Assembly (NCBI GenBank): GCA_037157565.1
Contig: JAZHRO010000073.1
Span: 18,730,501 to 18,794,500, forward strand
DNA length: 64,000 bases
Direction: 5' to 3'
Origin: Thalassia testudinum
Lineage: Eukaryota > Streptophyta > Magnoliopsida > Alismatales > Hydrocharitaceae
In this document: positions 7,044-64,000 of the stretch, piece by piece
Position numbering within the stretch: position 1 is the first letter of the stretch
Layout of the letters: each line of letters opens with the position of its first letter
Notes under the pieces: model-generated
Databases searched by the model: none
The model's input: the letters and a program-made list of their open reading frames with translations, nothing else
Told to the model about the DNA's origin: nothing
Made by a program: the position numbers and the translations under genes

Positions 7044-9810
7044 TATTACGACCCGGTTCTTGAATCCCTACAGGACACAAGATCGGACCGACTCAACTGA
7101 TCCCAAGACCCAGTCGTCCAACAAGAACCAAAAAGTAGGAAAGTAAACTACATTCACTATGCTAAACAACTAACAGTAAAAACTACTACAGTATATATCA
7201 CCACCACCATAGTAGAAAGTAACAAGGTACAAGACTATAAAGTACAAAACGTAAAAATACAGAACATAAGGGTACAAGAGTCTACTCACTACTACAAACG
7301 AGTACAACAAAAGAGCTACAACTACTGGGCTCTATTGAGCCCAGCACCCTCTACAGCCGTAGGCTCTTGCTGCTCAACACCTGGACCTGAAAAGGGTTAC
7401 AAGTACACGAAGTCAACGAATGCTGAGTAGAGTGGCAACCAACTAACTAAAGCAGTAAAAGTTGACAGGTAACTGTTGTTTTTCAATTTCTTTCTTTAAC
7501 TAATTTTTCTTTTTCACTACTTAGTTTATTTATCAGGTCTCTTTCTTGATCTCGAATGTTCCTCGTGGGAACGATCTTGATTGCAATCATTTCCGAGGAG
7601 TAGAAGGCATACATGGTGCTCTCCTGACCGGGAGAGTCCCCCGTGGTGATCCTACACCCAGTCAACCCTAAGGTCACGGACAGACGTAATAGTGACTACG
7701 GCACGCGTGATAAGCACACAGATAGCTACCCCGCACTAGCACAAGATCAGTCGTTTCCGTTAGCGGGTGCGCCCAAAGTACAGCACGGAACCAGTATAGG
7801 GCCTAGCCCTCTCAGTAACAGGGGTCTAGCCCCTAAGAAACAAACAGGGGTCCCGCCCCTCCACAATCCGCGCATCCTCGCCTAACTACCGTGGTTTGCC
7901 CAGTGGGCCTAACAAGTCAGTGTAGGGTGGCTTGTTAAACCCCAGGCCCCATAGGGTAGCTAGCTCTCTCCCTACACTAGTAGCTCTTCCCGGTACTGTG
8001 TACGCGAGCGCTAAGAAGTCGGTACAGAGTTGCCAATCCTAACCCTGGGTCCCAACCCAAGGGCGACTAGCTCTGCTCTGCACTAAATAGGGGGACAGTC
8101 GCTCTCCTTGGTACTCCGTGCTCAAGGGCCAACTCACTTCCCCACTCACATTTTTAGATACATTCCATTTATTTCCAGGAGCTCTACTCCTAATTCCCTG
8201 TAAAGTTCATGCTCATATTCCTCATGCCATGCCATACCAAGTTTCGTCATTTTTATTTCCATTCTCAGGTTATACATATGCAGCTTTTATTGCTATCATT
8301 CACATTTCCATACACAGGTTATACACAAGTAGCTCGTATTTCCATCATTTACATTCTCATTCCCAATTTATATATATGCAGCTCTTATTATGTCATTTAA
8401 CGTATACAATAGGAAATTTATATGCAACAGTTAGCTAGCACAAGTACTTCATATTTTACAGGCAGTTGTTATTCACTTACAGGCAATTGTTATCATTCTA
8501 TCTACTCATTCAAGACTGCAATTCAATCATCCAATACAGACATTTCAAGTGTTTCTCGTCCTAAGATTCATGCCATATCCTAGGTTCTAATCATTCATTC
8601 CACACATGCATTTAGGTTATAATTAAATTAGGGAAAGCAACTCTACCAGTAAACCCAGAAATATTGAGGGCTTGAACGGCAGGCTCACGTGCCTCAGCAA
8701 GCCCGAACCCGCAACGGAATGAAGTCCTATAATAAGGAACAATCACAAGGGAACTATCAGAATAGTATGGAAAGCCTTCTAACAAGTAGAGGAGCTCACA
8801 AGGAACACATTGGTATCTTATTTGCGTAAAACGGAACTCAAACGGACCCTAAACATGTCAAAAATAGGGTTTCTGTCTCAAATCAAACGTCTGGAACAAC
8901 TTTCAGATGTCTTAAAAGTGTCTAGTATCATACCTAAGTCTCTGCGTCAATCCTCAGACGTCCAAGAACCCTTCTGGACCGTTTGGACCCAGCTCCAGAC
9001 ATCTGACCACCTCTCCGGACATCTGGAAGTATTTTTCGTCGTCTGGTACGTCACCCAGATGTCTGAAATGCATGGTAGGACGTGTCCCATGCCTTCCTGA
9101 AGCGAATCCTGCACGTAGACACTGAATCCTCTCAAAAAGGGCATGCAAAGTGGTAGCAGCAAAGCGACCTGCATGGCCGTATCCGCAAAGGGGATGTACC
9201 TTTGCAAAACTCTCACCTCCAGACGTTCGCACCGTCATCTGGAGGTTACTCCAGTTGTCTGATTCTGGGAAAAACCCAGAACCAGAACCTGCTTCCGCTA
9301 CTCTCGCGCCGCGCGTAGTCGAGCCGTGCCCCCCTCGCCTGCAACTCCAACTGCAGCAGTGTCAGGGAGGACCTCCCCGACGCACTCCTCCGCCTCGCGC
9401 ACGCGCCGCTCTGGCCGTGCGCTCACCGGTGAGCTCCCAGACAAGCTCGCAAACTCACTCTCCTCCTCTCCTCACACCGCTCCTCCTCGACACCACCCGT
9501 GCGCTCTCTCGCTCGCGCTGTCTCTCTCATTGGAGTGGAGAAGAAGAGGGGAAGGGGCTGGTGTGAGGAGAACGTGAGAGGGAAGGGGGGTTTTATAAGA
9601 TCGATGAGTTAGGGTTTCGCTGGAAGCAGGGAGAGAGAGAAGGGGAGGAAAAACGAGAGTACTGTCTGCGCGCAGCCCGCGTGCAGACGCGAGCTCATAC
9701 TCAAAATTTTCGATTTCCAGATATCTAGGAAGGTGTCTAGACATCTGACCAGACGTCTAACCCACAGTCCAGACATCTTAAAAGGCTCAAACAGCACGGG
9801 TCTTAATACA
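7044..9810 (-). repeat. Element A 5' LTR
   Basis: In its own direction it starts TGTATTAAGACCC (9810) and ends GGTCGTAATA (7044), matching the TGTAATGACCC...GGGTCGTAACA ends of B. A TATA box lies at 9597-9591 (minus). A four-box AGACGTCTG-type array is at 9719-9780 (starts 9719, 9739, 9751, 9771; spacing 20-12-20), just upstream of the TATA box. More boxes lie in the transcribed part at 8866-9090 and 9218-9270. Confidence 0.9.
9591..9597 (-). promoter_or_regulatory. TATA box of element A LTR
   Basis: TATAAAA on the minus strand in the context CTTATAAAACC, the same context as the B LTR TATA boxes at 18898 and 51113. Confidence 0.7.
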
Positions 9811-18723: not shown

Positions 18724-18785
18724 AGACGTCTGGACTGTCGGTCAGACATCTGGTCAGACATCTGGACCCCTTCCCAGTCGTCTAG
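18724..18785 (+). promoter_or_regulatory. Four-box AGACGTCTGG array (20-12-20) upstream of TATA
   Basis: Boxes agacgtctgg, agacatctgg, agacatctgg and agtcgtctag start at 18724, 18744, 18756 and 18776. The same geometry occurs in the B 3' LTR (50939, 50959, 50971, 50991) and in the A LTR (9719, 9739, 9751, 9771). It ends 113 bp before the TATA box. A promoter role is inferred from position and conserved spacing. Confidence 0.6.
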
Positions 18786-18897
18786 AAATTGAAAATTTGG
18801 TACGTGACTTCGCATCTGCGCGTGGGCTGCACGCAGACAGTATCGCTCTTCTCTCTCTTACCCTCTCCTCTCCTCCATCCGAACCCTAACGCACCCT

Positions 18898-18904
18898 TAT
18901 AAAA
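18898..18904 (+). promoter_or_regulatory. TATA box of element B 5' LTR
   Basis: TATAAAA in CCCTTATAAAACC, followed by a CT-rich leader. Confidence 0.7.
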
Positions 18905-20111
18905 CCTCTCTCACCCTCTTCCTCTCTTCCCCACAAGCCACCTTCCTTCCTCCCTCTCCACTTCAATGAGAGGGGCGAGCGCGATAGAGAGTGCGAGAGC
19001 GAGCGACGAGGAGGAGAGGCGGCGTAAGGAGAGGAGGAAGAGCTTGAGCTCGCGAGCTCGTGGGAGCTCGCCGGAGGACGCACGACCGGAGCAGCGTGTG
19101 CGGAAGGAGGAGAGCGTCGGGGGAGATGTCCTCGACACTTGCTACAGCCGGAGCTGCAGGCGAGGAGGCGAGGCCGCGGCTGCGCGCGGCGCGAAGGAGT
19201 AAAAGTAGTTCTGGTTCTGGGATTTTTCTAGAATCAGACGTCTGGCGTGCTGTCCAGACGACGGGTTGGACGCCTGGTGACAACACCGGACGTCTAAAAG
19301 TAGTGTTCCGGGAAGGTATGTTCCTCTTGCTGATATGGCCATGCAGGCTGCGCCGCTGCTTCGATCTGCATGGCTAAAAGTGATTGATTTGCTTGTCGCG
19401 TGTAGAGATAGCTTTATGAAGGTGCGGGGCACGCCCTCCCACGCGTTTCGAACGTCTAGACAGCTTACCAGATGACCGAAAGCACTCCCAGACGTCCAGA
19501 GGAGAGGTCGGACGACTGGAGCTAGGTCCAGACGGTCAAGAAGAGGTTATGGACGTCTGAGGTCGATGCAGAACCTGAGGTGAGACTCTGGTTACTTTTA
19601 AGACGTCTAGACCTTGTGCCAAACGTCTAATTTAGGTCTACAGTCCTATTTTTGACCCGTTTAGGGTCCATTTGAGGTCCATTTTACGCAAATAAAATAT
19701 CGGTGTTTTCCTTGTGAGTTCCTCGACTTGTTAGAAGGCTTTTTATACTATTCTAAATGTTCCATTGTGGTATGTTCCTTGGTATAGGACTTTGATCAGT
19801 TGTGGGTTCGGGGCTTGCTGAGCCTACTGTTCGAGCCCACAGTACTCCCGGATTATCTGGTAGAGTGGTTTTCCCCTATTTTAATTATAAACCTGAATGC
19901 ATATGTGAAATTAGATAACTAGAATCCTAGGATGTAGTATGAATCGTAGGACGAGAAGTACTTGCACTATTTGTATTAGTATCTGAAATTGCAATCTTAA
20001 ATGAATGAATAGAAATGTGAATAACTGCCTGTTAATAAATAAGAGCTGCCTGTGAAATATGAAATGCCTGTGTTAGTTAAACAGCTACCTGTGACATTAC
20101 TTGTGGTATAT

Positions 20112-22851
20112 TGATGAGAGCCTCATCATGAGCCATAACTAGCTCATTTTCACCTAATAAAGAGAATAAAAGCTCCTACATGACTTAGAAGATGGCATAA
20201 TTGGAGGAATAAGTGTTCTGAGAAGAAAACATGAAATAAAGGTTAAAACTGCAATTTTACCATTTCACTACATAAACGGGATTTCTCAAAGACAAAACAT
20301 AGGTCAAATGGTCTAAATGAGATAAAAAGCGGGTTGATTTAATCAGAAATGGGTTCATATGCTATCTAGGAATTAAATGACATCTGGTGACCCTAAAATA
20401 GATCCGCTTAATTCAACAAAGTTTCGGTCAGGATAAAAATCAAGTAAACTCTCTAAAATTCATGTAAAAATATCCCCTAGAGTTTAGAACATTCAATTTG
20501 GCCTTTGGAACCTAGTTTGACCTAGATTAGGGTCCTAGCTCATCAATTGACCTAATTTGGGTTTTTACACAAAATATCCAGTCAAACGTGGTCAAACCTA
20601 AAATCCAACTTCACCATTGGATTCCTTAGGTCCAAATTAATTTTTTTATCAAAATTTGGACCAAAGGGGAGGTCATCTTGACCTACTTTGCAAATTAGTA
20701 CACCCAAATCACATTTTGGTCCCTATCTTTTGAAAGCCATTGCATAAACCCCCCTAACTTCCTTGTCACTCTTACAAGAAGGTCCCTCCGCCATTATTGG
20801 GGAGAAATCCTACTCCGGCGAGGATTAGAGAGGGAATACTCTCTGATTCCTCAGAGATCTCCCAGATTTGGAAGGGAGATTCTCTGAGGAATGCCCTTCC
20901 ATCTGAACTCAATCACGATCCATGATTTGCACCCAATCTCTCGTATGAACGCATGAGAGATTTGGGTATCTAACTACCTTCCATCTCCAGTGAGACTTCG
21001 GTGGTGGAAGGCTTTCCCTCCACGCACCAGAAGCTCGGCCAGCACCTATAAATTAACCCCCAACTCCGGTCGCACCTCCTTAGCTCAACTTGGCCGGGAT
21101 TCCACCTCAATTTCCTCTTATTCTTCTCCGGCCAAGGGGTCCAGCAAGCTCCGGTGAGCCCCCCTCCTCTTCCTCGTCGCTCTGCCACAAAACCAGTGGC
21201 AGAGTCATCCTCCTCCGCGTCGCGCAACACCCACGCGAGCTGCCTTAGCCCCGTCGTCACCGCCGTCTTCCTCCACTGGATGCTTTCTTCTTCGACGACA
21301 GCAGGTACTGTCGGCAGCCTTCTCGTCCACTTCGTCCCTTTAGTTAGGTTAAAACGGTTCTTCTCTATCCCCTCTTTCATTTCCCTCATCTTATTTCACC
21401 AAACGCCCCTCGATGGCCGCTATCCACCACCATCTTCATCTCCGGCCACCCTCCGGCGAGACGCTCCCATCACTCCACAGCCCCACACGTCTCGCTGACC
21501 ATCGCATAACCTCTGCCTCACCTCACTGAATAACCTCCGCTTGTCCACAGACCCTCTACACCTCCACAACTACCCCCCGATCAAACCCATCCGACCGGCC
21601 ACAGGGCAACCTAGGCACGCACGCCTAGGCTGCCCCGCGGCCTGCCACCTAGCTCCTCACCTTCATCGTGACATGGCGAAGGTGCTCCTGTGGTCTGATT
21701 AAGTCGCAAGGCTCTGTTTGTGTCAGGCAGGTTTCACGCCCCGGCCACCATTAGCAGTGAATCGAGGAAGCTTCTTGCTTGCTCCAGGCTGCAATGCTTC
21801 AGGGCTCCAGGTCCAGCTAACTCGGGGAGGCATTGCGAAGACATCTGTTCTAGCAAGAGACGTCGCAAAGCCAGCAGTTGTGGCAATTGGAGAATTCACT
21901 CCTGCGGGCGTGCGCAAAAGAACAGTGGGACAACAGTCCCACCTCGGTAAGCTGTGAAGAGCTGTAGTGATTTATATTGATTTTGTGTTATTGGTTCATT
22001 GCCTCCAGTTACACTTGGGGTGAGGTCCCTCACCTATACTCAGCGCCTCGTCCGTGATCTCACCACACAGATCTGGCGACCCGACCCGACACCATCCTGA
22101 GCACTCCTCGCGCACCATACTCACGCCGGTGCACCTGGACCTGGGCGCGCGACCCGACCCATTTACCTAGCTCTGGGAGAGCATGCTGAAGAGTGATATA
22201 CAGAGAGAGAGACTTGCGGGTGTGGGTAGAGGGGTAGGTTTTGCTCCTCTGGTTTGTGCAGGGAAGGCAGAAGGGAGAAAAGAAGCTGACACTTTGTTGC
22301 TGCAAGAGAAGGAGAAGAAGCGGAAGGAAGGAAGCCTTCGCAGAGGAAAAAGAGAAGGAAAGGAAGAGGTGAAGGAAAAAGAGAAGAGGAACTGAAGAAG
22401 AAAGAAGAAATAAAGAAAGGTAAAGATAAGTAGGAGAAGAAGAGAAAGCAGAGCCAAAGAGAAGAAGACCCGCAGAAGAAAATAAGAAGAAAGAAGCAAG
22501 GCAACTCAGAGAAGAAAGAAGAAGCATAAAGAAGAAAAAAGGGAGAAAATCAGAAGAAGAAGGACAAGGGAAACATCTTTTAAGACGTCTGATCCCATGA
22601 TCAGACGTCCAAATTCTTTCTTTTTTCCATTATTAATTTTCAAACTCATGCATTTATATATTTTGAATTAAGTTTTGAGTAATTAAGTGTTCAATTACAT
22701 TCTTGATATTAGTAATAAATTCCAATTGCTCCTTATGTTCGACCTCGGATACTTAGGTTTTCGAGTAATAAACTTTTATTTGTTGACAACGCTTGATCAC
22801 CTATACTACGACGTAACTAATTGTTAAAACACGATCGAGCCCGCGTCAACA
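20112..22851 (+). repeat. Element D 5' LTR
   Basis: 2740 bp. It begins TGATGAG-AGC-CTCATCA, a terminal 7-bp hairpin, and ends CGCGTCAACA. TATA-like TATAAATTA is near 21046. A purine-rich AGAAG tract covers about 22290-22560. One 20-bp-spaced box pair (22583, 22603) lies near the end; the 3' LTR lacks it. Confidence 0.9.
22583..22610 (+). promoter_or_regulatory. AGACGTCTGA dyad in element D 5' LTR
   Basis: Boxes at 22583 and 22603 (20-bp spacing). GACGTCTGATC at 22584 is exactly complementary to GATCAGACGTC ending at 22609, an 11-bp stem with a CCAT loop. Confidence 0.7.
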
Positions 22852-22854
22852 TTT

Positions 22855-22871
22855 TGGTGCCGTTGCCGGGG
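22855..22871 (+). other. Element D primer binding site (tRNA-Asp type)
   Basis: TGGTGCCGTTGCCGGGG, one mismatch from the complement of the plant tRNA-Asp(GUC) 3' end. It lies 3 bp after the 5' LTR. The following GAGCAACG can fold back on it. Confidence 0.85.
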
Positions 22872-25938: not shown

Positions 25939-25975
25939 AATGAGGACATTGCAAAACTTAGGCATGGGGGGGTGA
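25939..25975 (+). other. AATGAGGACATTG plus internal polypurine-like motif
   Basis: AATGAGGACATTGC is followed by TTAGGCATGGGGGGG. The same pair occurs in E (58731-58767) and on the minus strand of C (36722-36687), always just after the coding region. Athila-group elements carry a similar GAGGACAATG...GGGGG block downstream of pol (known for the group). The purine run copies the true polypurine tract before the 3' LTR. Confidence 0.7.
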
Positions 25976-26694: not shown

Positions 26695-26860
26695 TCAAAT
26701 ACCATGGGTGGCATTATCACGAAATGTCGATCGCTAGGGTCAGAATTCGGCCACGGAACGCCATGGGCGGGATTATCTCGAAATCTTGAAAGCCAGGGTT
26801 CTGGGGGTTGCCATGGGCGGTGCTATCTCGAAGCATTGATAGCCAGGGACCCTTGAGGAT
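26695..26860 (+). repeat. Element D 3' untranslated triple repeat
   Basis: Three imperfect units of 50-59 bp begin CCATGGGTGGCATTATC (26702), CCATGGGCGGGATTATC (26761) and CCATGGGCGGTGCTATC (26811). Each is followed by (T/A)CGAAnn...GAnnGCNAGGG. Homologous triple blocks lie in E (59435-59595) and, inverted, in C (35940-36115). Confidence 0.8.
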
Positions 26861-27271
26861 TGATGATGGGGACGAGGAATCCGATACAGACCGTGTTGAG
26901 AAGCTAATCCGAAGCTAGAAATAAAAAGAAAAGAGAGAGAAAGCTCTCCAAACAAATAAATCTTCTGTCTCTCTCTTACAAAAATGCACTACAAATTGAA
27001 CCTAGGCTAAAAATATCTCAAGCACGGGTGCTTTAACCGTGGAGTCCAACAAATCCTAGGTTAGTTTCTGTGGGCCTTAAAAACCTTTCTAGAGGACTAA
27101 GGCTAAAGCGGGTCAGGTCCGGATTTTGGTTGGTACTTGAGTACCTCTAGGCCTATTGTCGGCATTCTGACCAAATCACAAAAGAAAAAGGGAAGCACTT
27201 ATCATAATTGATGACAGACACTTAAGGTCTAGAACAGAAGTTAAAACCTTAAAATTTTGCTAAGGGACTAG

Positions 27272-27292
27272 CAAAAGCTAGGCATGGGGGTA
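27272..27292 (+). other. Element D polypurine tract
   Basis: GCTAGGCATGGGGGTA ends immediately at the 3' LTR start (27293). It is preceded by GGGACTAGCAAAA, shared with C and E. Confidence 0.8.
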
Positions 27293-29946
27293 TGATGAGA
27301 GCCTTATCATGAGCCATAACTAGCTCATTTTGACCTAATAAAAACAATAAAAGCTCCTACATGACTTAGAAGAGGCCTTAATTGGAGGAATAAGTGTTCT
27401 GAGAAGAAAAGATGAAATAAAGGTTAAAACTGTAATTTTACCATTGCAGTATATAAATGGGATTTCTCAGAGACAAAACATAGGTCAAATGGTCTAAATG
27501 AGATAAAAAGTGAGTTGATTCAATCAGAAATGGGTTCATATGCAATCTAGGAATTAAATGACATCTGGTGACCCTAAAACAAATCCGCTTAATTCAACAA
27601 AGTTTCAGTCAGGATAAAAATCAAGTAAACCTTCTAAAATTCATGTAAAAATATCCCCTAGGGTTTAGAACATTCAATTTGGCCTTTGGAACCTAGTTTG
27701 ACCTAGATTAGGGTCCTAGCTCATCAATTGACCTAATTTGGATTTTTACACAAAATATCCAGTCAAACGTGGTCAAACCTAAAATCCAACTTCACCATTG
27801 GATTCCTTAAGTCCAAATTAATTTTTGTACCAAAATTTGGACCAAAGGAGAGGTCATCTTGACCTACTTTGCAAATTAGTACACCCAAATCACATTTTGG
27901 TCCCTATCTTTTGAAATCCATTGCATAAACCCCCCTAACTTCCTTGCCACTCTTACAAAAAGGTCCCTCCACCATTATTGGGGAGAGATCCTACTCCGAC
28001 GAGGATTAGAGAGGGAATACTCTCTGATTCCTCAGAGATCTCCTCCCAGATTTGGAAGGGAGATTCTCTAAGGAATGCCCTTCCATCTGAACTCAATCAT
28101 GATCCCGGATTTGCACCCAATCTCTCGTGCGAACGCATGAGAGATTTGGGTATCTAACTACCTTCCATCTCTGACGAGACGTTGGTGGCAGAAGGCTTGC
28201 CCTCCACGCACCAGAAGCTCGGCCAACACCTATAAATTAATCCCCAACTCCGGCCGCACCTCCTCAGCTCGACTTGGCTGGGATTCCACCTCAATTTCCT
28301 CTTATTCTTCTCCGGCCAAGGGGTCCAGCGAGCTCCGGTGAGCCCCCCTCCTCTTCCTCGTCTCTCTGCCACAAAACCAGTGGTAGAGCCATCCTTCTCA
28401 TCCTCCTCCGCGTCGCGCAACACCCGCGCGAGCTGCCCTAGCCCCGTCGTCGCCGCCGTCTTCCTCCACTGGATGCTTTCTTCTCCGGTGATAGCAGGTA
28501 CTGTCGGCCGCCTTCTCATCCCCTTCATCCCTTTAGTTATGTTAAAACGGTTCTTCTCTATCCCCTCTTTCATTTCCCTCATCTTATTTCACCAAACGCC
28601 CCTCGACCGCCGCTGTCCACCACCATCTTCTTCATCTCCGGCCACCCTCCGTCGAGACTCTCCCATCACTCCACAGCCCCACACGTCTCGCCGAGCATCG
28701 CATAACCTCCGCTTGTCCACAGACCCTATACGCCTCCACAACTACCCCCTGATCAAACCCATCCGACCGGCCACAGGGCGACCTAGGCACGCACACCTAG
28801 GCCACCCCGCGGCCTGCCACCTAGCTCCTCACCTTCGCCGTGACACACCGAAGGTGCTCTTGTGGTCTAATTAAGCCGCAAAGCTCTTTTTGTGTCAGGC
28901 AGGTTTCACGCCCTGGCCGCCATTAATGGTGAATCGAGGAAGCTTCTTGCTTGCTCCAGGTCCAGCTAACTCAGGGAGGCATCGCGAAGACATCTGTTCC
29001 AGCAAGAGACGCCACAAAGCCTGCAGTTGTGGCAATTGGAGAACGCACTCCTGCAGGCGTGCGTGAAAGAACGGTGGGACAATAGTCCGACCTCGGTAAG
29101 CTGTGAAGCGCTGGAGTGATTTATATTGATTTTGTGTTATTGGTTCATCTCCTCCAGTTACACTTAGGGTGAGGTCCCTCACCTATACTCAGCGCCTCGT
29201 CCGTGATCTCACCACACGGACCTGGCGACTCGACCCGACACCATCCTGAGCACTCCTCGCGCACCACACTCACACTGGTGCGCCTAGACCCAGGCGCACG
29301 ACCTGACCCGTTTACCTGGCTCTGGGAGAGCGTGCTGAAGAGTGATATACAGAGAGAGAGACGCGCGGATGTGGGTAGAGGGGTAGGTTTTGCTCCTTTG
29401 GTTTGTGCAAGGAAGGTAGAAGGGAGAAAAGAAGCTGACACTTAGCCGCTGCAAGAGAAGGAGAAGAAGCGGAAGGAAGGAAGCCTTCGCAGAGGAAAAA
29501 GAGAAGGAAAGGAAGAGGCGAAGGAAAAAGAGAAGAGGAACTAAAGAAGAAAGAAGAAATAAAGAAAGGTAAAGACAAGTAGGAGAAGAAGAGAAAGCAG
29601 AGCCAAAGAGAAGACCCGCAGAAGAAAATAAGAAGAAAGAAGCAAGGCAACTGCAGAGAAGAAAGAATAAGCATAAAAAAGAAGAAAGGGAGAAAATCAG
29701 AAGAAGAAGAAGGACAATGTGTCACTATTAATTTTCAAACTCATGCATTTATATATTTTGAATTAAGTTTTGAGTAATTAAGTGCTCAATTACATTCTTG
29801 AGATTAGTAATAAATTCCAATTGCTCCCTGTGTTCGACCTCGGATATTTAGGTTTTCGAGTAATAAACTTTTATTTGTTGACAATGCTTGATCACCTATA
29901 CTACGACATAACTAATTGTTAAAACACGATCGAGCCCACATCAACA
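27293..29946 (+). repeat. Element D 3' LTR
   Basis: 2654 bp, same ends as the 5' LTR (TGATGAG...ATCAACA). It lacks about 55-60 bp containing the AGACGTCTGA dyad (junction near 29717-29726) and has smaller indels elsewhere. Confidence 0.9.
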
Positions 29947-31220
29947 TATATGTTAAATGATGGAAATACGAGCTGCATGTGTATAATCTGAGAATGGAAA
30001 TGTAAATGAAGAAACTTGGTATGGAATGACATGGGGAATACGAGCATGAACCCTACGGGGAATTAGAAGTAGAGCTCCTTTGAATAAATGGAATGGATCT
30101 GGAAATGTGAGTGAGAAGTGTGCTGACCCTTGAGTACGTGGTACCAAGGAGAGTGACTGTCCCCTTTTTAGTGTAGAGTGGAGCTAGCCGCCCATGGGTT
30201 GGGACCCAGGGTTAAGATTGGCCACTCTACACCAACTTCTTTGGCCCTCACGTACACTATACCGAGGAGAGCTACTAGTGTAGGGAGAGAGCTAGCCACC
30301 CCATGGGGCCCGAGGTTTAGCTAGCCACTCTACACCGACTTGTTAGGTCCACTGGGCAAACCAGGGTAGTCAGACGAGGGTACGTGGACTGTGGAGGGGT
30401 GAGACCCCTATTTGGTTCTGAGGGGCTAGACCCATGTTACTGAGAGGGCTAGTCCCTATACTGTTCCGTGCTGTACTTTGGATGTACCCGTTAGCGGAAA
30501 CGACTGACCGCGTGCCAATACGGGTTAGCTACCTGTGCACTTATCGCGCGTGTTGTAGTCACCGCTACGTCTGTCCATGACCTTAGGGTGGTTGACTGGG
30601 TGTAGGATCACCACGGGGGACTCTTACGGCTAGGAGAGCACCACGTGTGCCTTCTACTCTTCGGAAAAGATTGCAATCAAGATCATTCCCACGAGAAACA
30701 TTCGAGATCAAGAAAGAGATATGAAAAATAAACCAATAGGTGAAAAGGAACAACTTGTAAAATAAAGTAATTGGAAAAGATATATTACCTGTTAGCTTTT
30801 ACTGCTTTAGTTAGTTGGTTACCACTCTACTCAGCGTTCGCTGACTTTGTTTACTCATAACCCTTTTCAGGTCCAGGTGTTGAGCAACCCGAGTCATTGG
30901 CTGTAAAGGGTGCTGGGCCTAGTCGAGCCTAGCAGTAGTCTTCTTATTGTTGTACTTTCTTTTGTTAGTGGGTTCAGACTCTTGTTACCGTTTACGTTTC
31001 TGTACTTTGTTTCCACTTTACTGTTGTGGTGCTGATATGTACTATTAGCAGCTTTTACTTCCTTTACTACTTGTACTCTTTTACTGTTAGTTACTTAGCA
31101 TAGTGAATGTGGTTTACTTTCCTGCTTTTTGGTTATTTCTTGTTGGACGACTAGGTCTTAGGATTAGTCAAGTTGAGCCAATCTCGGGTCCTGTAGGGAT
31201 TCGGGAACCAGGTCGTAATA
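29947..31220 (+). repeat. Element B 5' LTR, part 2
   Basis: Resumes with the second TATAT target copy and ends GGTCGTAATA at 31220. It contains the uninterrupted target of element E (GCAAA at 30356-30360 within ACTGGGCAAACCAGGG). Confidence 0.9.
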
Positions 31221-38808: not shown

Positions 38809-39770
38809 ATAAGCATCATTCCTCAGCTCCTCAAACTCACTTAATTCTAGAAGTCGTGCCTTACCTGCCGTCTCTAAATCCATATTAACACTTCGAATAG
38901 CCCAAAGTGCCTTATGTTCCAACTCAACAGGTAAATGACACGCTTTTCCATACACAATCCGAAAGGGAGAAGTACCCAAAGGGGTCTTATAGGCCGTTCG
39001 ATAAGCCCACAAAGCATCATTGAGCTTTTGGGACTAGTCTTTCCTATCAGGTCTTTTCCAAAATATTTTATATCTCCCTATTTGACACTTCAACCTGGCC
39101 ACTTGTCTGAGGATGGTAAGGGGTAGCAACCTTGTGAGTCACTCCCAAACTCCTGATTAACTGATTGAAGTGGTGGTTTCGGAAATGAGGTCCCCCATCA
39201 CTTATAATAGTCTTGGGGCAGCCGAAACGAGATATGATATTGGCCTTCACAAATTTCAAAACCACAGAGTGGTCATTTGTGCGCGTAGGAATGGCCTCTA
39301 TCCATTTAGAGACATAATCAACTGCCACCAAGATATATCCATAACCATGGGATGACGGGAAGGGGCCCATAAAGTCAATTCCCCACACATCAAAAATTTC
39401 AACAGATTGAATAGGATGTTGAGACATTTCATTCCTCTTCCCAATCGTTCCAGTCCGTTGACATCTAATACAGGCCTTAACAAAATTATGAGAATCCTTA
39501 AATAAGGAAGGCCACCAAAAACCAGACTAAAGAATCTTAAAAGCAGTTTTCTTAGCACCAAAGTGTCCTCCACAATGAAGTTCATGGCAAAAACTCAGCA
39601 TACTTTATTGTTCCTCTTCAGGCACACAACGTCTCAATACTTGGTCTTGTCCAATTCTAAATAATCCTGGCTCTTCCCAATGAAAATATCTTGCTTGAGA
39701 AATGAATCTCTTTCTTTTCTGCTCATCCCAAGAGCCAGGAGTTTGTCCAGTGACCAAGTAATTTACAATG
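38809..39770 (-). pseudogene. Element C integrase zinc-binding and catalytic core
   Basis: The frame through 39427 reads [20 protein letters not shown], then [17 protein letters not shown] and [19 protein letters not shown]. These give the catalytic D, D, E in order. The next segment [21 protein letters not shown] is conserved gypsy integrase. The H-H-C-C part lies in broken frames at 39430-39600 (HELHCGGHFGA, C..CQRTG). Stops and frameshifts separate it from RT. Confidence 0.87.
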
Positions 39771-39778
39771 TCTGCATA

Positions 39779-41494
39779 CTAAGGTAAAGTTGGTGTTATT
39801 GCCATCAGAGTTTCATCGGGAAATGTCTCGCAAATGTCTCCAGAAAGAGAGTCATTAAGAGGAAGGCGAGACAGGTGGTCAGCCACAACATTTTCTACTC
39901 CTTTCTTTTCATGTATTTCTAAGTCAAATTCTTGAAGGAGTAGGATCCACCTAATCAGACGTGGCTTTGAATCTTTCTTAGCAATGAGATGTTTCACTGC
40001 TGCATGATCAGTAAAAATAACCACCTTAGACCCAAGTAGATAAGACCTAAACTTCTCCAGAGCAAAAACTACAGCAAGTAATTCTTTTTCAGTGACGGTG
40101 TAGTTTTGCTGAGGTTCGGTTAAAGTCTTGCTTGCATAATGCAGCACATGAGGTCTTCCCTCAACCCTTTGTCCAAGGACTGCTCCCACTGCATAATCCG
40201 AAGCATCACACATAAGCTCAAATGGGAGTGTCCAATCAGGAGCTTGGAGAATAGGCGCAGAGATCAAGGCCTCCTTTAGAGTTTGAAAGGCCTCGGCACA
40301 CTTTGAATCAAAACTGAAGGAAGATTCCTTCGCCAACAAGTCACAAAGTGGCCTAGAAATCTTACTAAAATTTTTAATAAAGCGTCTATAAAAGCCAGCA
40401 TGGCCCAGAAAGGATCTAATCTGTTTAACATTTGTAGGCAATGGAAGTTTGGAAATAGAATCAATCTTAGCTTTATTTACTTCCAAACCTTGCTCGGATA
40501 CAACTTGCCCAAGTACAATTCCTTTCTGTACCATGAAGTGACTTTTCTCCCAGCTGAGGACTAAACCAGTCTCCTTACATCGTTTCAACACATTCTCCAG
40601 GTGTAGGAGACACTGGTCGAAAGACGAGCCATAAATGGAGAAGTCATCCATAAACACTTCAACACACTCGTTAATCATGTTCGAAAAGATAGACATCATA
40701 CACCACTGAAAAGTTGCAGGGGCATTACATAATCCAAACGGCATACGCCTGAATGCAAAAGTACCGTAAGGACTTGTGAATGTCGTCTTTTCCTGGTCAT
40801 CAGGAATGACTGCCACCTGATTGTACCCAGAATATCCATCGAGAAAGCAATAGTACTTATTCCCTGCCAATTTTTTGAGAATTTGATCAATAAAAGGCAA
40901 AGGAAAGTGATCCTTCTGGGTAGCGGTGTTCAGCTTGCGGTAATCAATACAGACCCTCCATCCAGTTGAGGGTTTAGTGACAACTTGTTCACCATGGTCG
41001 TTGAGTTCCACAGTAAAGCCTGCCTTCTTTGGCACCACATGAATGGGACTAACCCATTTACTATCAGCAATGGGATATATGATCCTGGCGTCCAACCACT
41101 TCAGGATTTCCTTTTTAACCACCTCCCTCATATTAGGGTTCAAACATCTCTGCATGTCCCTAAAAGGCTTGATGGAATCATCCATATAGATGTGGTGCAT
41201 GCAGAGTGTAGAGTCTATACCCTTAATGTTAGCAATGCTCCAAGAAATAGCTTCCTTGTTCCTAGACAGGCATTCAATCAAGTCTCCCTCCTGTGCCTCA
41301 GATAGCACAGTCGAAATGATAACGGGGAGTGTATCATTGGCACCTAGGAAAACATACTTGAGAGTGTCAGGGAGGGGTTTCAACTCAAGGTCAGGGGCTT
41401 GTATGGTTGAGGGTTTCATAATAGATGTCCCCATCTCAGGTAGCAAATCTACCTTCGACGGAAATGATGGGGGAAGAGACTCGGCAGAAACTCC
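39779..41494 (-). CDS. Element C reverse transcriptase and RNase H
   Basis: Native Athila polyprotein sequence from [11 protein letters not shown] on, open for about 570 codons. RT carries [46 protein letters not shown] and the catalytic box FMDDFSIYG. RNase H follows with [46 protein letters not shown] and [13 protein letters not shown], giving the D-E-D-D set. This domain pair still looks catalytically intact. Its frame continues upstream into the copia-like solo LTR (to 41563), which is not native; originally it was continuous with protease. Confidence 0.92.
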
Positions 41495-41905
41495 TGTTGG
41501 TGCTAGAGCACCACGATCATTTGTTTTGATGATAACAAAACACGTGTTATTTAACATTTGCAATTTGAGTCCTAGATTTCAGGTCAATTGCAAATGTGGA
41601 CGTGTTTAGACGGAGTTCGAGCTCGCATCCAGGACGGATTGGAGGAGCTTGACGGAAAACAGAGGAGGTTCGCGTGGAGCGACAGATTGAAGATAGAAGA
41701 CAAGAAGAATATGATAGATTCTTTTTAATCCTTTCTTGTATCTCTTGTCTTTATTTTCTTGCTCTTTTTATTTTCCTTAGAAAATTATGTTAAAGAGCCT
41801 CAAAGAACCCTAACAGTAGTCCTAGGAACACCGGCACAACCTTAGGATACTTAGGTTTTCTGTAGAATACTTAGAAAACCAATATAGGGTTCAAACAGCA
41901 CTTCC

Positions 41906-42435
41906 AGACGTCTAATTCCCAAATCAGACGTCTGATAAAGTATTTTAAGACGTCTGACTGTTGTTTCAGACGTCAGATATCTGTTAGGCTGGGATAGCTA
42001 GTTCTGTCTGATGAAATCAGACGTCCAGACCTTAGACCAGACGTCTGATGACTTTGCCAGACGTCCAATTAGTGGACCGTTGGCTGGCTTAGCAGACACT
42101 CAAGGATTATGACCATTAGAGCCTTATCAGATGTCCTTAGGCCTTTCCAGACGTTTGATAAATGACCGTTTTGCCTCGGCTGACCCAAAATCTCTTCTCA
42201 GAGATTTTCTAGCCGTTGCAACGTTTGGAAATCAATTCCCACAGTAGAAGTAGGTTTCCAGACGTCCAAACATAGTTCCAGACGTCCTGTATGTCGTCTG
42301 ATGAACTTGCGCAAAAACCCTGTTTAGATCTGATCCAAGTCAGGGAGAGACCCGCCCAAAATCAGACGTCTGACCTTGGAATCAGACGTCTTAAAGTGGC
42401 CTTCCAGACGTCTGATGCCAGAGTTAGACGTCTGA
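41906..42435 (+). promoter_or_regulatory. Sixteen-box AGACGTCTG array in strict 20-bp register
   Basis: Box starts: 41906, 41926, 41948, 41968; 42019, 42039, 42059; 42129, 42149; 42260, 42280, 42292; 42364, 42384, 42406, 42426. Steps within sets are 20-22-20, 20-20, 20, 20-12 and 20-22-20. Thirteen boxes contain perfect GACGTC. The intervening 10-bp spacers are unrelated in sequence except that they usually end CC or TC. The array ends 110 bp upstream of the TATA box. Confidence 0.85.
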
Positions 42436-42545
42436 TAACCCTGTCAAATGTAATCATTGTCCTGATTTCGGCCTGATTCTCTTGGGCTTTGTTCCCAACG
42501 GCTATAGAACCTTTCCTAAGCCTTCCAAAGCCTTCCCAAGGCCTC

Positions 42546-42553
42546 TATAAATA
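42546..42553 (+). promoter_or_regulatory. TATA box of copia-like solo LTR
   Basis: TATAAATA in CTCTATAAATAGAGGGG, a strong plant TATA context; start predicted near 42575. Confidence 0.75.
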
Positions 42554-43218
42554 GAGGGGAGCCTTTGACACACCAACATACACACTTAGAGACACAAGAT
42601 ACACACCAAGAGACACCTTGTAATACACTCTCACACTCTTGTGTCCAAGAAGCTCTTGCTCTCCACGCCTTAGCTCCATTCCCTTGAGAGCATCAAGCCT
42701 TCGCGCACCCGCTCTCCCGTCGTTGTTCACGAGAGCGACATTGCGCCGTTGCGTGGCTCACGCACCCGCGTCATCCTCGATGCACTCCTTGCAAAGGGGA
42801 GTTTCCTAATTCCTATAGAAGCTAGGTTCATAATTACTTTGTTGGCTCTATAGGACTTGTTGTTTATTTTATCTTTGTCTTTTAGTTGGGTATTCGCTTT
42901 GCGAATTCCCGTCTCCTTCGTGGGACAAAATCCTTCTCGTGGAGAGAAGGGGTTGAGGAACGCTACCCTCATACTTGTAGCGTTGTTGTACTGAGGTTGA
43001 ATCACCCTCGTTTTAAAGTGATTCGGTTTAGTGGTTTTTGATCAACTTGGTTGATCGGAAAATCCTAACTCGAGAGGGTTAGGTGGTGGTTTTCACCCGG
43101 TTTGGGTTTTCACCTAAAAATTCTTGTGTACTTTGTGTGATTGCTTATTTGTAAGATTATATTTCAATTCCGCATTTTATTACGTCACCCCTCCTAATAG
43201 GGCCAAACCTACAACTCC

Positions 43219-43983
43219 TAGCAATTCCTCAAGTTCTAGTATATCCCCTTCACATTCCTCCAAGAGATGGGAATGCTCATTTAGCATGACATGCTAAAGG
43301 GGGTCATCACATAACATTGCAGGAGTTGCCTCTTCAATCAGGTCATCTATCACCTCAACTTGAGAACAATCCTCAAGTCCGGCTTGTTTGTAAGCATCAA
43401 ACACATTAAGCCGGATTTTCCTGTTCCCAAAGCCCATTTTCAATGCCCCAGTATTGCAATTGATTAGAGCATGCGAAGTTGCAAGGAAGGGGCGACCCAA
43501 AATGATGGAGGGTTTGGTTGGCTTGTTGGTAGGGTCAGTGTCCAAAACTAAGAAGTCAACGGGAAAGAAGAAATCCTCCACTTTTATGAGGACATCTTCC
43601 AAAATTCCCCGTGGTGTCTTAAGTGATCGATCAGCAACTTGAAGGATTACAGGGCTAGGCTTCAGATTGCCTCCCCCAAGTTGTTCATACACGTAGCTCG
43701 GAAGGATGTTCACCCCCGCACCCAGATCAAGTAGAGCCTCATCAATTTGTAAGTCACCAATAACTACAGAGATGTATGGGGCTCTTGGGTCCTTAAGTTT
43801 CGGGGGTGTGCCATGTTGAACAATTGAGCTAACAGAATTAGGCAGGACAACTTTTGATTGGACCTGTTTTCTAGATTGTTGCTTTTTCGTGCATAGGTCC
43901 TTTAAGAAGTGGGCATAAGATGGAATCTGCCTGATAGCTTCAAGAAAAGGCAGGTTAATCTGCACTTGCTTGAAAGTTTCCAT
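43219..43983 (-). pseudogene. Element C protease region
   Basis: Open part 43983-43294: QVQINLPFLEAIRQIPSYAH, then the aspartic protease DEALLDLGAGVNILPSYVY (active-site D-L-G, the Athila variant) and KPSIILGRPFLATSHALI (the ILGRPFL flap/C-terminal motif). A TAG at 43294-43296 interrupts the frame just before the linker to RT, which ends at the solo LTR at 43218. Confidence 0.9.
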
Positions 43984-44049
43984 AGTCTCATCCGTCTTAT
44001 CTTTGGCTCCAGATGAGCCAGCAGAAGTCTGCCCAAAGGTGGATAAGCG

Positions 44050-45636
44050 CTATGGAAAAGGCACTCTCGATCTCTGGGTGGAAGGGTTGTCATGTCGAGT
44101 AAGGGGTGGAACGAGGGCAACTTCTTCCGGTGAGGTGATTTCAAGCGGAGAAGATTTGGGCAAGTCTTCTCTGGAGGGGGTGAAAGTCGGGGTGGATGGT
44201 TTTTTAGGGGGTGAGATTATAGGAGCATCGGGTTTGGAAATTTCTTTCCCACTCCTCAGAATAGTCATCGCCTGAGCATGCTCCCTAAAGACAATCCCTT
44301 TTCCTTTAGGATTTTCCTTAGCAGCACTGGGGAGCTTCCCAGGCTCCCTCTGTCTAACGGCCTCAACAAGGTGTCCAATTTGCAATTTCATCTCATGTAT
44401 AGCCTTGTCATGAGATTGGATGATGACACTTTGACTTTCTTTCATAGTTTTCAACATCTCCTTCAATTCATCCATCTCAGAGGTTTTAGGTTGGGCAAAG
44501 GTCTGAGGTTGGTTCATTTGATGGTTTTGAAAGGATTGTGGTTTGTAATTCCCTGAATTTGAGACATTTCCTTGTCTCCATGAAAAGTTTGGGTGGTTTC
44601 TCCATCCCTCATTATAAGTGTTGGAGAAAGGGTCATTATGAGGTCTTAGACGGAACCCTTGAGCGGCATTCAAATTCGCTTGTACAATCTCAGGGAATTG
44701 GGAGGCCAAGTGGCAATCCACAGTGGCGTGTGTATTGCCTTGACAATTTAAGCATTCGGAAGCTTGGGATGTGGAGGTGTTAGGTACGAATGAACTCGAG
44801 TTCGACATAGGCCTTTCCATGTTTTGATTCAATAATTGGATCTGATAGGCTAAATTCTGGGTGCCCCTTGCCTCATTTGCCTCCAACTTTCTTTGCATGA
44901 GAGTGGGCTTTCTATCCATGTAGGCAGAATTCAAGTGAATAGAATTCTCACTCAAAGTATCAAATAAGTTCCAAGCTTCATCCTCAGTCTTAGATAGAAA
45001 GGTTCCTGCACAGGCACCATCCACAGTTTGCCTATGCGAATCATTAAGTCTGGTGTAGAACCTTTCAACCAGTTGCCATTTAGGCACCTGTTGATGTGGG
45101 CAAAGTCTCAGCAAGTCGTTAAAGCGCTCCCACGCATCATGGAATGCTTCCCCATCCTTTTGAACAAAACTCATAATTTCCCTCCTAAAGTGATTTGTTT
45201 TGATCATGGGGAAGTACTTCTTCAAAAACTCCTTCTTCAGGGCATCCCAAGTATTTATATTATCAAGGGTGTGATACCCATACTTGGCTTTGTCCTTAAG
45301 GGAGAAGGGAAAGAGGGTCCTCATTTGAGCGTCATCAGTAACGCCCTGCAGCTTCATCGTGGAACAGACCTTGGTGAATTCCTCAATATGCCTGTAAGGG
45401 TCTTCCCTACTAGTACCATAAAAGGAGGGTAGCAAGGATATGGTACTACTTTTGATCTCATACGGATTGTCCCCTCCAGGTCTACGTAGTGCAGGGCCAG
45501 CTTGATTGGTTGGGATGAAATATTCCTTAAGGATCCTTTAACCGGCCATTTCTACCTTTGGAAGGTCTCTTCTTAGGATTCTTTCAGGTTCAGGATCAAA
45601 CACAAGTTGTCTCCTAAGAGAACGCCTACCAAGCAT
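44050..45636 (-). pseudogene. Element C gag
   Basis: The ATG at 45636 (MLGRRSLRRQLVFDPEPER) is in frame with the long ORF but followed by a TAA at 45540-45538. The open part (461 aa from 45435) starts LPSFYGTSREDPYRHIEEF. It contains the Athila capsid signature (LFPFSLKDKAKYGYHTL, TWDALKKEFLKKYFPMIKT, FHDAWERFNDLLRLCPHQQV) and ends in a Pro/Ser-rich stretch. A CLNCQGNTHATVDCH sequence is a partly preserved zinc knuckle. Apart from the early stop and the final frameshift near 44050 it is well preserved. Confidence 0.9.
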
Positions 45637-46860: not shown

Positions 46861-48543
46861 TGAGTCGATTTTTCGCTTTAAAGTCGTTTGTAGTTTTATG
46901 TGGTGGAAAAATCGACTAACCAATATTTAAAAAGAAATAACCACTCGCAGAAGAGTGGGTCGTATCCACAAGGAGGCAATGACGTATTTAAATTCGCACT
47001 GGTTAAAAATGTTTGTTCGTAGTTAGTTTAGACAATAATCAAGCCAAACTTGCCTTCAGATTAAGGTTGAACCAAGAAATCATGCTGAAATAGAAATTCT
47101 TAATAACTAGAGGATATTTGTTGCAATGCAGATTCAATAAAATATCATTAAAATATGACAATGGCAGAAAATGTAATTATTAATCGCATGGATACTTTAG
47201 CAAAATAGGGGATTTATTCCCCTTGACCGTGCGCGAAGAGGAGAGGACGGCCGGAGGCGGGAAGCTCGAAGGAAGTTCTTTGGACCGAGGGCTTTGCAGC
47301 AGTGGTGGCGGTGAGTCGCGCGGTGGCCGAAGTCGGCCGAACGGAGCTCCAGCGGGGGGCTGAAGTGCCACAGGCCGTGCGACGTGGGCAGGCGCGGTTG
47401 GTGTCCTGGCGAGGAGGGTGCGCACGGGACTGCACGCGCGCGGAGGTGGCGCTGCTGGCGTACGCAACTGCTGCTACTGCAGGGTGCACACGGAGGTGGC
47501 ACGCGTTCTGCAGTGCACTGGAGGTGCGCTGGAGGAGGGCGGCTCTGCTGCAGGCGTACGGGTGAGCGCTGCAGCCGGTGCTGCACGCTGGCGGGCGCTT
47601 GGGGTTGGCGCTGCAGGTGAGTGTGCGCACGCACTAGTGTGGCACTGCAGGTAGCGACGGGGAGCCTGCATGCGCGGGAAGGCTGCTGGCCGTGCCCGCC
47701 TTGCGCACGGCTAGAGGGCGTGCGGGTAGGCGTGGAGTGAGCGGGTGAGGGCTGGCGGTTCAGGTGAGCGAGCGAGGGTTGGCGGTTCAGGTGCTGGAGG
47801 TGAAGTGGGCGAGGGTGGTTGCTGCTGGAGTGGGGAGGGTCGAAGCTTCAGACGTCTGGGAAACTTCCCAGACATCTTAACTGGCTGAGGAGTGATTGCA
47901 GTAACTGCGACGGTGGTTGTTGGTGACGACAGCGAGGGAGGTGCACGGCGAGGTGCTCACGGTAATGCGGACGATCTCCGGATGGCGGTGTGGCCTGTCA
48001 CACCACACGCCCACGGTGGTGGAGGGTCATCGCCGCGGTTGAGGCCGGCGGTGTGGAATGGAAGAGATGGACTCTCTGCACAGTGTGGGTTGGGGGTGGA
48101 GGCCCACTCCGCTTGGCAGCCTCTCTCCTCTTTTTGTAGCTACCTGCATGAATTTGAATGGAGAAGCGGGAGCAGATCCACCTTCTCCGCTAATCCATGA
48201 ATGTGGCTTTAGTGCGGCAGGAGGCGTTGCAGCGGTAGCCGAGCCGTTGTTGAAAAGAAGAAGAATAAAGGATATTATTAAAATATTATGATTATTTATA
48301 TACAAACCCTCAACTTTTATGTTAACTTAAACAATGTACCGAATTGGTTAACTAATTAAATGAATGCCATTCTAAGTTAATTCTAAATGCATTTAAAATA
48401 TGAATGCAATGCATGAATTATGTAATTAAATTAGAAATATGAATTAATCTATTTACATCATAATTTATGCTAAATAAATGTTAGAATTAACCTAATGTCT
48501 AGGCACTTAAATACTTAAATAGCCCACAAATATGGGCTAATCA
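46861..48543 (-). repeat. Element C 5' LTR
   Basis: 1683 bp. The left end reads TGAGTCGATTTTTCG and the right end GGGCTAATCA, followed by target GCAGG. Box dyad at 47850-47877. Confidence 0.93.
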
Positions 48544-50907: not shown

Positions 50908-52749
50908 TGTAATGACCCGTTCTGTTCTGAGCCTTTTAAGACATCTGGACCGTCGGTCAGACATCTGGTCAGACATCTAGACCCCTTCCCAGACGTCTGG
51001 AAATTGAAAATTTGGTATGTGACTTCGCATCTGCGTGCGGGCTGCACGCAGACAGTACCGCTCTTCTCTCTCTTTCCCTCTCCTCTCCTCCATCCGAACC
51101 CTAGTGCACCCTTATAAAACCCCTCTCCCCCTCTTCCTCTCTTCCCCACTTCACCACAAGCCACCATCCTTCCTCCCTCTCCACTGCAATGAGAGGGGCG
51201 AGCGCAAGAAAGAGCGTGAGAGCGAGCGACGAGGAGGAGAGGCGACGTAAGGAGAGGAGGAAGAGCTTGAGCTCGCAAGCTCGTGAGAGATCGCCGGAGG
51301 ACGCACGACCGGAGTGGCACGTGCGGAAGGAGGAGTGCGTCGAGGGAGACATCCTCGACACTTGTTGCAGCCGGAGCTATAGGCGAGGAGGAGTGGCCGC
51401 GGCTGCACGCGACGCGGAGGAGCAGAAGTAGCTCTGGTTCTAGGATTTTCCCAGAATCAGATGTCTGGCGTGCTGTCCAGACGATGGGTTGGACGTCTGG
51501 TGACAACACCGAACGTCTAAAAGCAGTGTTCCATGAAGGTATGTTCCTCTTACGGATACGGCCATGCAGGCCGAACCCTAGCTTCGATTTGCATGGCTAA
51601 AAGTAGTTGATTTGCCTGTCGCGTGCAAAGATAGCTTTGGGAAGGTGCGGGGCATGCCCTCCCACGCGTTTCGGACGTCTGGACAGCTTATTAGACGATC
51701 GGAAGCACTCCCAGACGTTTGGAGGAGAGGTCGGATGTTTGGAGCTGGGTCCAGATGGTCAAGAAGAGGTTCTAAACATCTGAGGTCGACACAGAACCTG
51801 AGGTGAGACTCTGGTTACTTTTAAGACGTCTGGACCTTGTGCCAGACTTCTGATTTAGGTCTACGGTCCTATTTTTGACCCGTTTAGGGTCCATTTGAGG
51901 TCCATTTTACGCAAATAAAATATCGATGTTTTCCTTGTGAGTTCCTCGACTTATTAGAAGGCTTTTTATACTATTCTAAATGTTCCATTGTGGTGTGTTC
52001 CTTGGTATAGGACTTCGATTAGTTGTGGGTTCGGGGCTTGCTGAGGCACGTGAGCCTGCTATTCGAGCCCACAGTACTCCCGGATTATCTGGTAGAGTGG
52101 TTTTCCCCTATTTTAATTATAAACCTGAATGCATATGTGAAATTAGATAACTAGAATCCTAGGATGTAGCATGAATCCTAGGACGAGAAGTACTTGCACT
52201 GTTTGTATTAGTATCTGAAATTGCAATCTTAATGGAATGAATAGAAATGTGAATAATTGCCTGTTAATAAACAAGAGCTGCCTGTGAAATATGAAATGCC
52301 TGTGCTAGTTAAACAACTACCTGTGACATTACTTGTGGTATATGTTAAATGATGGAAATACGAGCTGCATGTGTATAATCTGAGAATGGAAATGTAAATG
52401 AAGAAACTTGGTATGGAATGACATGGAGAATACGATCATGAACCCTACGGGGAATTAGTAGAGATCCTTTGAATAAATGGAATGGATCTGAAAATGTGAG
52501 TGAGAAGTGTGCTGGCCCTTGAGTACGTGGTACCAAGGAGAGCGACTATCCCCTGTTTAGTGTAGAGCGGAGCTAGCCGCCCATGGGTTGGGACCCAGGG
52601 TTAAGATTGGCGACTCGACACCAACTTCTTTGGCCCTCGCGTACACTATACCGGGGAGAGCTACTAGTGTAGGGAGAGAGCTAGCCACCCCACGGGGCCT
52701 AGGGTTTAGCTAGGCACCCTACACCGACTTGTTAGGCCCACTGGGAAAA
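50908..52749 (+). repeat. Element B 3' LTR, part 1
   Basis: Starts TGTAATGACCCGTTCTG. Boxes at 50939/50959/50971/50991 (20-12-20) and 51465/51485/51497/51517 repeat the 5' LTR arrays. TATA box at 51113. It holds the empty site for D (TATAT, 52339-52343). Broken at 52749 by E. No clear polypurine tract precedes it. Confidence 0.92.
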
Positions 52750-62937: not shown

Positions 62938-64000
62938 AGGCGAGTATGCACACGAGGAGGAGGGGCTTGTGGAGAAGAGCCTCTCGACCCCCTGCAGTTG
63001 CTGTAGCTACTGCTGCCATACTGCGGGTGGCGGCAGCGAGGAAGACGAATGTCGCGAGGAGTTCTGGGTACTAGATTTTTCCCGTGTCAAACGTCCAGAG
63101 CACCTACCGGATTTCTGGAACAATAGCGAACGTCTAGAGCTGAAGCCGAACGTCTGAAAACTCGTGGAGTGCCGAGGTAAGTGTCCTGAACGCTCATCCA
63201 TGCACGTACGTGAAGTACGTGGCATGCACTGTCGTGGTTTTGAACCTGCAATTGTATGTGCAGGTACAGGCCTTGGAAAGGCACGCAAGCATGCTCTTCG
63301 AGGTGCTTTAAGACGTTTGGACATCTCCACAGATGTCTGAAAGACCTATCAGACGTCTGGGTGCACTAACAAACATCTGGAAAGACCCAAGATGACTATA
63401 AATGGGTTCCAAACATCTACCAGCAATGCAGGGAAGTAAGGTGAGGTTCTGAGATCGTTTAAGACGTTGGATTCTAGTCCCAGACATTTGATTTTAGACA
63501 GTATGCACGTTTTTGGCCCATTTAGGGCCCAAACGAAGTTGGATTTATGCAAACAAAATACCAATGTTTTCCGCTCGAGTTTCTCTACGTGTTAGTGTCA
63601 ATTATATACCATTTTGAACTCATATGATGTGACTTAGTCACTGGTATAGGTCTCCAACCTGTAGCGTGTTCGTGGCCTGCGAAGACGACAGGACCTACGG
63701 TTCTAGCCCCCATTCCTCCCGTGTTTCCAGATAGAGTGGTTTACTTTAATATTATGATTTAAATAAGTAAAGTGCATGTTTAAAATAACTTGATTAAACC
63801 CTAGGATGTGAAATGAACCTTAGGGCTGAAATGAATGAATATTGTTTGAGCTACACTGTTTACTTTGAGATGCATGTTAAGCCCTAATTACTAGCAAGTG
63901 TATTAATTACTTGATGTGCTGCTTTCTCAATTATTAAAATACGAGCTGCCTGTTATAAGAATGAAGCCCAAGATGTGAACAATGAGATTTGAATGTTGAG
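62938..64000 (+). repeat. LTR F, right part, continuing past the window
   Basis: Related to the middle of the B LTR but clearly diverged: a shared order of GC-rich leader, box arrays, TTAGGGCCCAAACGAAG and AAACAAAATACCAATGTTTT. Boxes start at 63089, 63109, 63128, 63148; 63311, 63331, 63351, 63371 and (after a decayed one) 63411; 63462, 63482. The LTR end is not reached. Confidence 0.75.

Follow-up and report, generated by a model that had tools for sequence, protein, structure and literature searches.

Long terminal repeats (LTRs) of several retrotransposon families in the Thalassia testudinum genome carry a palindromic box, AGACGTCT, that is arranged in pairs: two boxes stand 20 bp from each other, and successive pairs are joined by steps of 12 or 22 bp. 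The sequence of the box, its pairing and spacing, its genome-wide excess, its sharing among families and its preservation between diverged lineages were observed directly. Judged from sequence, the pair is probably a two-dimer operator, which would be bound cooperatively by one factor, most likely the host's, and would act as an LTR enhancer. The array that drew attention to the box was found in a 64,000-nucleotide stretch of DNA (hereafter referred to as the window), for which an initial annotation was available.

Box array in the solo LTR

A solo LTR of family F (41495..43213, plus strand), with TG...CA ends and target-site duplications of ACTCC on its left (41490..41494) and right (43214..43218), carried 16 boxes with at most two mismatches to AGACGTCT, eight of them exact. 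Counted from the LTR start, the array extends from 413 to 940 bp, and it was divided into five modules. Module 1 (41906..41975) comprised two pairs, 41906/41926 and 41948/41968 (steps 20-22-20), and module 2 (42019..42066) three boxes starting at 42019, 42039 and 42059 (20-20). Both boxes of the single pair in module 3, 42129/42149 (42129..42156), were damaged. Module 4 (42260..42299) contained the pair 42260/42280 and a two-mismatch box at 42292 (20-12), and module 5 (42364..42433) the pairs 42364/42384 and 42406/42426 (20-22-20), with all four boxes exact. At the site of module 2, an additional 12-bp box unit was present in 9 of 11 aligned F copies and absent from the window copy. A 17th AGACGTCT-like match at 41975 was off register and overlapped a box. 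The presumed promoter TATA of the LTR, TATAAAT (42546..42552, plus strand), was located 113 bp beyond the last box and 640 bp from the start of the first. The 16 boxes, their steps, their location within an LTR and a TATA box 110-640 bp downstream had all been described in the initial annotation and were recovered here; its description of a C-box GACGTC core with unusual outer bases (A..T) was also agreed with.

Matches to AGACGTCT with at most one mismatch numbered 75 window-wide against 20.8 expected, which was reached in 0 of 100 shuffles. Among the 15 best boxes (42292 omitted), eight had a partner 20 bp downstream, a figure matched by 0 of 20,000 random placements. Chance enrichment, already rejected in the initial annotation, was ruled out by these two tests and by the genome-wide pair and 12-mer counts against controls given below. 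The inner 8 bases of the 12-nt spacers shared 2.14 of 8 matches in direct and 1.89 in inverted comparison, against 2.05 for random LTR 8-mers. A tandem satellite has a conserved unit including its spacer, which the array lacks, and no repeat unit containing the box was detected over the array (TRF); with spacer identity at the random level, a decayed tandem satellite was ruled out. Conserved spacers, named in the initial annotation as a sign of such a satellite, were not found. The spacers had been described there as 10 bp of unrelated sequence; their identity is indeed random, but each box is bordered on its inner side by two constrained bases (YC..GR), which leaves a free spacer of about 8 bp rather than 10. 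The outermost boxes of many clusters (18724, 41948, 42384, 63311 and others) were bordered by TTTTA or TAAAA, as if array ends were marked.

LTRs with 84-88% identity to the solo LTR over nearly its full length were identified in L011, L019, L022 and L002. The L011 element contained two family F LTRs (1763-3461 and 5566-7252; K2P divergence 0.045), a duplication of AAACC, a primer-site-like ATTGGTATCAGAG and a purine tract. Family F was assigned to Ty1/copia because this related element holds a copia-type gag (PF14223, E 1.1e-15, Pfam), encoded in its 2.1-kb internal region. No pol domain was found in the two frames of that region scanned against Pfam. Family F elements with a short gag-encoding inside and no pol domain found were L011 1763-7252 and L022 with L027. 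These features suggest that F may be a non-autonomous copia family of high copy number. Relatives of the gag included Musa textilis and Tasmannia sequences.

The solo LTR was inserted in the coding region of a Ty3/gypsy element, E1 (39068..45537, minus strand; open frames, Pfam), between a protease frame (43294-44049) and reverse transcriptase (39779-41578); the protease frame is putative, the Pfam scan of E1 having covered the reverse transcriptase and integrase frames. Insertions were nested at least three deep in 18692-62939, where a family B gypsy element was split by E elements and by E1, and E1, itself inside this nest, carries the solo LTR with the array. The relatives of an open frame at 16903-17529 were plant protein kinases, from Ensete and others, marking it as a probable piece of a host gene amid the retrotransposons. 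Like those of the gag, these relatives indicate a flowering-plant host.

Pairing and spacing of the boxes

Box spacing was analysed in the window and in a sample of 180 kb, made up of 18 manually chosen 10-kb stretches. Within the sample, AGACGTCT ranked third among all 8-mers and first among palindromes (71 exact occurrences). Its 153 matches at no more than one mismatch compare with 89 for the next and a median of 38 in a set of 36 CpG-containing palindromes of similar composition. When partners with up to one mismatch were accepted, 74 of the 88 exact boxes in sample and window had one partner at 20 bp, two had two and 12 had none; with two mismatches allowed, the numbers became 76, seven and five. 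The sample counts are not independent, because the 48 sampled pairs derive from 7 of the 18 loci. The fixed 20-bp geometry of the initial annotation was retained, but the boxes stand in pairs and not in an open-ended ladder. Of the 176 words lying 20 bp to either side of exact boxes, 78 were themselves boxes (at most one mismatch), against 0 or 1 of 176 at ten other distances. Steps between neighbouring boxes were 20 bp 68 times, 12 bp 15 times and 22 bp nine times, any other step up to 60 bp occurring at most four times. The 12- and 22-bp steps connect pairs to each other; by eye, among the matches listed, the 22-bp step looks specific to family F LTRs. The inner flanks of the boxes were GR and YC.

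For inter-box distances other than 20 bp (16 distinct step patterns), which are not mutually independent, periodicity was strongest at 10.0 bp (R 0.69) and 10.5 bp (R 0.53). At 10.5 bp per turn, steps of 20, 12 and 22 bp correspond to -34, +51 and +34 degrees, so that pairs at 32 or 42 bp are nearly in phase. The location of the boxes on one face, as proposed in the initial annotation, was supported, with deviations of up to about 50 degrees.

Genome-wide abundance

The genome searched comprised 4.26 Gb in 237 contigs, and the repeat counts given for it may be lower bounds. Exact AGACGTCT pairs at 20 bp numbered 212,299, against six for the reversed-word control. The corresponding counts were 54,917 (control 1) at 12 bp, 43,822 (control 2) at 22 bp, 896 (control 3) at 21 bp and, summed over 13-19 bp, 1,391 (control 41). 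The extended 12-mer YCAGACGTCTGR was found 395,866 times, against 992 for its reversed word, and a strict 20-bp pattern extended by a further base 177,192 times forward and 177,544 times in reverse (controls 1 and 2). The excess at 20 bp, which the initial annotation had proposed to look for in other copies, recurs in other LTR copies and across the genome. In a 257-Gb prokaryote collection, the strict pair pattern occurred in 21 stretches, about the number expected by chance, and it was found in 0 viral contigs; a general feature of DNA was ruled out on these counts.

Occurrence in unrelated LTR families

Pairs were found in Ty1/copia family F, in two Ty3/gypsy families (B and E1) and in a further LTR family, E. 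Family B encoded, on the minus strand, reverse transcriptase (4380-5639) followed by integrase (409-1164), and E1 likewise reverse transcriptase followed by integrase (39068-39526), both in Ty3/gypsy order (Pfam). No Pfam match was obtained for the single inside frame of element E that was scanned (24552-25364); this frame and 57344-58072 are related acidic open frames within two E elements, without Pfam match. When the boxes were masked, the reference LTRs of F, B, E and E1 showed no cross-family match at E 0.01. Clustering of 70 array regions at E 1e-4 yielded 14 groups; on closer comparison several single groups fell into B, F, E or E1, two of them weakly, and L010:1194 with L026:9600 matched none of the four families. 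The array had initially been treated as a feature of one LTR family; it is present there and is common to copia and gypsy LTRs.

In the window, the 5' LTR of a family B element (18724..19628, plus strand; TATAAAA at 18898) carried boxes at 18724/18744/18756/18776 (20-12-20) and then at 19236-19628, and the 3' LTR of the same element had boxes at 50939..51851 (plus strand). Further boxes were located in the LTR of another B copy on the opposite strand (8885..9778, minus strand), and three boxes (20-20) in a diverged B LTR (63311..63358, plus strand). The E1 LTR (46862-48543) contained one 20-bp pair (47850..47877, minus strand), with related pairs at 34879/34899 and 38111/38131, and the LTR of element E (element 20112-29947) contained one near its 3' end (22583..22610, plus strand). 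In the E1 LTRs (34879, 38111, 47850), the pair is part of a near-perfect inverted repeat of greater length, and one pair is distinguished from another by matching changes at the inner bases of both boxes (AGACGTCC/GGACGTCT vs AGACGTCT/AGACATCT).

Placement relative to the TATA box varied by family. Family F boxes occupied LTR positions 408-942, with a TATA match at 1029-1062 in four of the five copies inspected. In three window copies of family B, a first group of boxes occupied positions 31-84 and a second 544-936 (750-922 in one copy), the TATA lying between them at 205-217. L008 had no TATA match, and in E and E1 the pair was downstream of the nearest TATA-like match. The initial wording, directly upstream of a TATA box, holds for the solo LTR and is not general, because family B boxes stand on both sides of the TATA.

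Conservation of boxes and spacers

Among six F copies, identity was 92.7% in boxes, 93.3% in flanks, 88.7% in spacers and 89.0% in the remaining LTR, and CpG identity was 89.4% within boxes against 83.8% outside. Between the two LTRs of one B insertion, boxes were less alike (0.86-0.89) than the rest (0.92), i.e., they decay faster, whereas pooled family B comparisons gave 0.834 for boxes and 0.738 for the rest. Diverged B LTRs, 53-74% identical overall, were set against each other in 27 comparisons; boxes were 74-93% identical and exceeded the LTR average in all 27, by only 0.01 and 0.03 in two of them. The inner spacers of these LTRs were identical at 343 of 688 positions (50%). Pair windows were gapless in 78 of 86 cases, against 55% of all windows, a count that is inflated and biased toward selection because conserved boxes anchor the B alignments. 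Selection on the boxes in active lineages is suggested, since boxes and spacing persist across diverged gypsy LTRs while spacers drift, and boxes decay after insertion.

Proposed operator and alternative explanations

We propose that AGACGTCT, extended to YCAGACGTCTGR, would be the binding site of a symmetric dimer and that the functional unit would be a 28-bp operator of two palindromes. As their centres are 20 bp apart, two dimers would lie almost on one helical face and could touch each other. Operators would stack at 32 or 42 bp, about three or four helical turns, and the 16 boxes of the solo LTR would form an enhancer for the downstream TATA promoter. Several unrelated LTR-retrotransposon families may rely on one factor, most likely a host transcription factor. 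Protein binding, a single factor and activation of transcription are what we infer from the arrangement of the boxes. Against this reading stand the A..T outer bases, which misfit the bZIP optimum TGACGTCA (0 occurrences in the window), the gain and loss of whole units in F, the family-dependent placement of the TATA and the 12 of 88 boxes without a partner. A bolder version, in which one trans-acting factor, possibly transposon-encoded or captured, would control copia and gypsy elements through a shared paired-palindrome code, so that most LTR expansion of the 4.26-Gb genome depended on one convergent switch, is considered doubtful.

The best rival is anti-silencing in the style of VANC, in which the pairs would be targets of a transposon-encoded or hijacked protein whose binding lifts repression instead of switching on a promoter, several families exploiting the one factor. 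It would suit short motifs dense in non-coding parts of the elements, their position on both sides of the TATA in family B and the alteration of arrays through gain and loss of units. As described in parts of the VANC report, however, the VANC21 motif is nearly limited to one family and one orientation (PMC5735166), whereas the box is palindromic and common to copia and gypsy, with F, B, E and E1 all carrying pairs. In addition, no candidate accessory gene was detected in 13 frames compared with Pfam (11 from the window and two from L011), and we regard this explanation as unlikely.

Neutral history, in which old tandem duplications would have kept their register as slippage between identical boxes deletes whole units, draws on length differences between 11 F copies, namely three gaps (12, 20 and 20 bp) and one additional stretch of 52 bp, all of them whole array units gained or lost, and on the resemblance, among the matches listed, of 22-bp steps to two recurring F spacers. 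Whole-unit slippage does keep register without selection; it leaves unexplained the recurrence of the 20-bp unit in families without mutual similarity, the survival of near-identical boxes amid spacers of random identity, their outliving of spacers between diverged B copies, and pairing instead of ladders, and such descent was judged distinctly unlikely. A strong predicted fold would fit a third possibility, that the palindromes are RNA or DNA structures such as hairpins, dimerisation or packaging signals: the 561-nt array folded far better than shuffles (z -12.2) and also better than shuffles keeping the boxes (-209 vs -190.4, sd 6.2, 0 of 60), and the second inner flank base covaried across the pair (35 of 55 vs 23.8, P 0.0002). 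The flank covariation, however, may just mirror family usage (GA/TC in F vs GG/CC in B), and inner flanks in F are often non-complementary. RNA structure is disfavoured despite the fold because covariation is lacking in 11 F copies: the covariation term came out unfavourable (+2.29), and a sequence changed on both sides was seen for only 5 of 151 pairs. A structural role appears very unlikely.

Significance

No description of the paired operator was found in the literature searched; among the matches listed for a box-like string, a minority of the total, no title dealt with plant LTRs. A maize LTR paper containing a box-like string was rejected, the string being a lacZ primer. For the terms searched, a recent review on host factors of plant LTR elements showed no mention of bZIP or palindromes in the portions covered (PMC12786077). 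In that literature, each known case of regulatory sites in plant LTRs was limited to a single family or to copia families related to one another. The putative operator described here is common to LTRs of both superfamilies, is spaced to single-base-pair precision and occurs as over 200,000 exact pairs. Were a single factor to recognise it, that factor could couple or permit the activity of a large part of the mobile DNA in this genome; if the operator reading is true, unrelated elements would have recruited a host factor convergently, and the case would be a clean one.

Comparison with known systems

Sections of a study on ONSEN and other Brassicaceae COPIA LTRs describe clustered host factor sites at fixed spacing that were gained separately by several families and grew by duplication (PMC5059998), so that repeated gain of such sites by copia LTRs is already known; the crossing of superfamilies and the scale are unusual here. 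The ONSEN-type heat-responsive elements resemble the present array in being clustered, fixed-spacing putative factor sites in LTRs. They differ in consisting of nGAAn units adjacent within 5 bp in copia elements (PMC5059998, in part), whereas the boxes form a palindrome pair 20 bp apart in copia and gypsy. VANDAL transposons, according to the portions consulted of the VANC report, hold arrays of short VANC target motifs in non-coding DNA that grow by repeat formation (PMC5735166). This likeness as short motif arrays in non-coding transposon DNA is set against a motif YAGTATTAY in the same orientation, in one family of DNA transposons with its own VANC gene (PMC5735166, in part).

Binding of TGA bZIP factors to tandem sites, as described in passages of one study, is spacing-sensitive and involves two dimers; the C-box GACGTC is likewise occupied by TGA paralogues (PMC9360754). 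Like the boxes, the as-1/ocs-type element combines two palindromes, each centred on ACGT, at a set distance. Its palindromes in as-1 reportedly have centres 12 bp apart, the same as the 12-bp step between pairs here. The main spacing here, in contrast, is 20 bp and not 12 (212,299 vs 54,917 exact pairs), the boxes occur in hundreds of thousands of LTR copies, and they read AGACG, with outer bases A..T, where as-1 has a TGACG core. The operator was not classed as as-1 because this TGACG core is missing; on our analysis, TGA bZIP factors on as-1-like elements would be its nearest working model.
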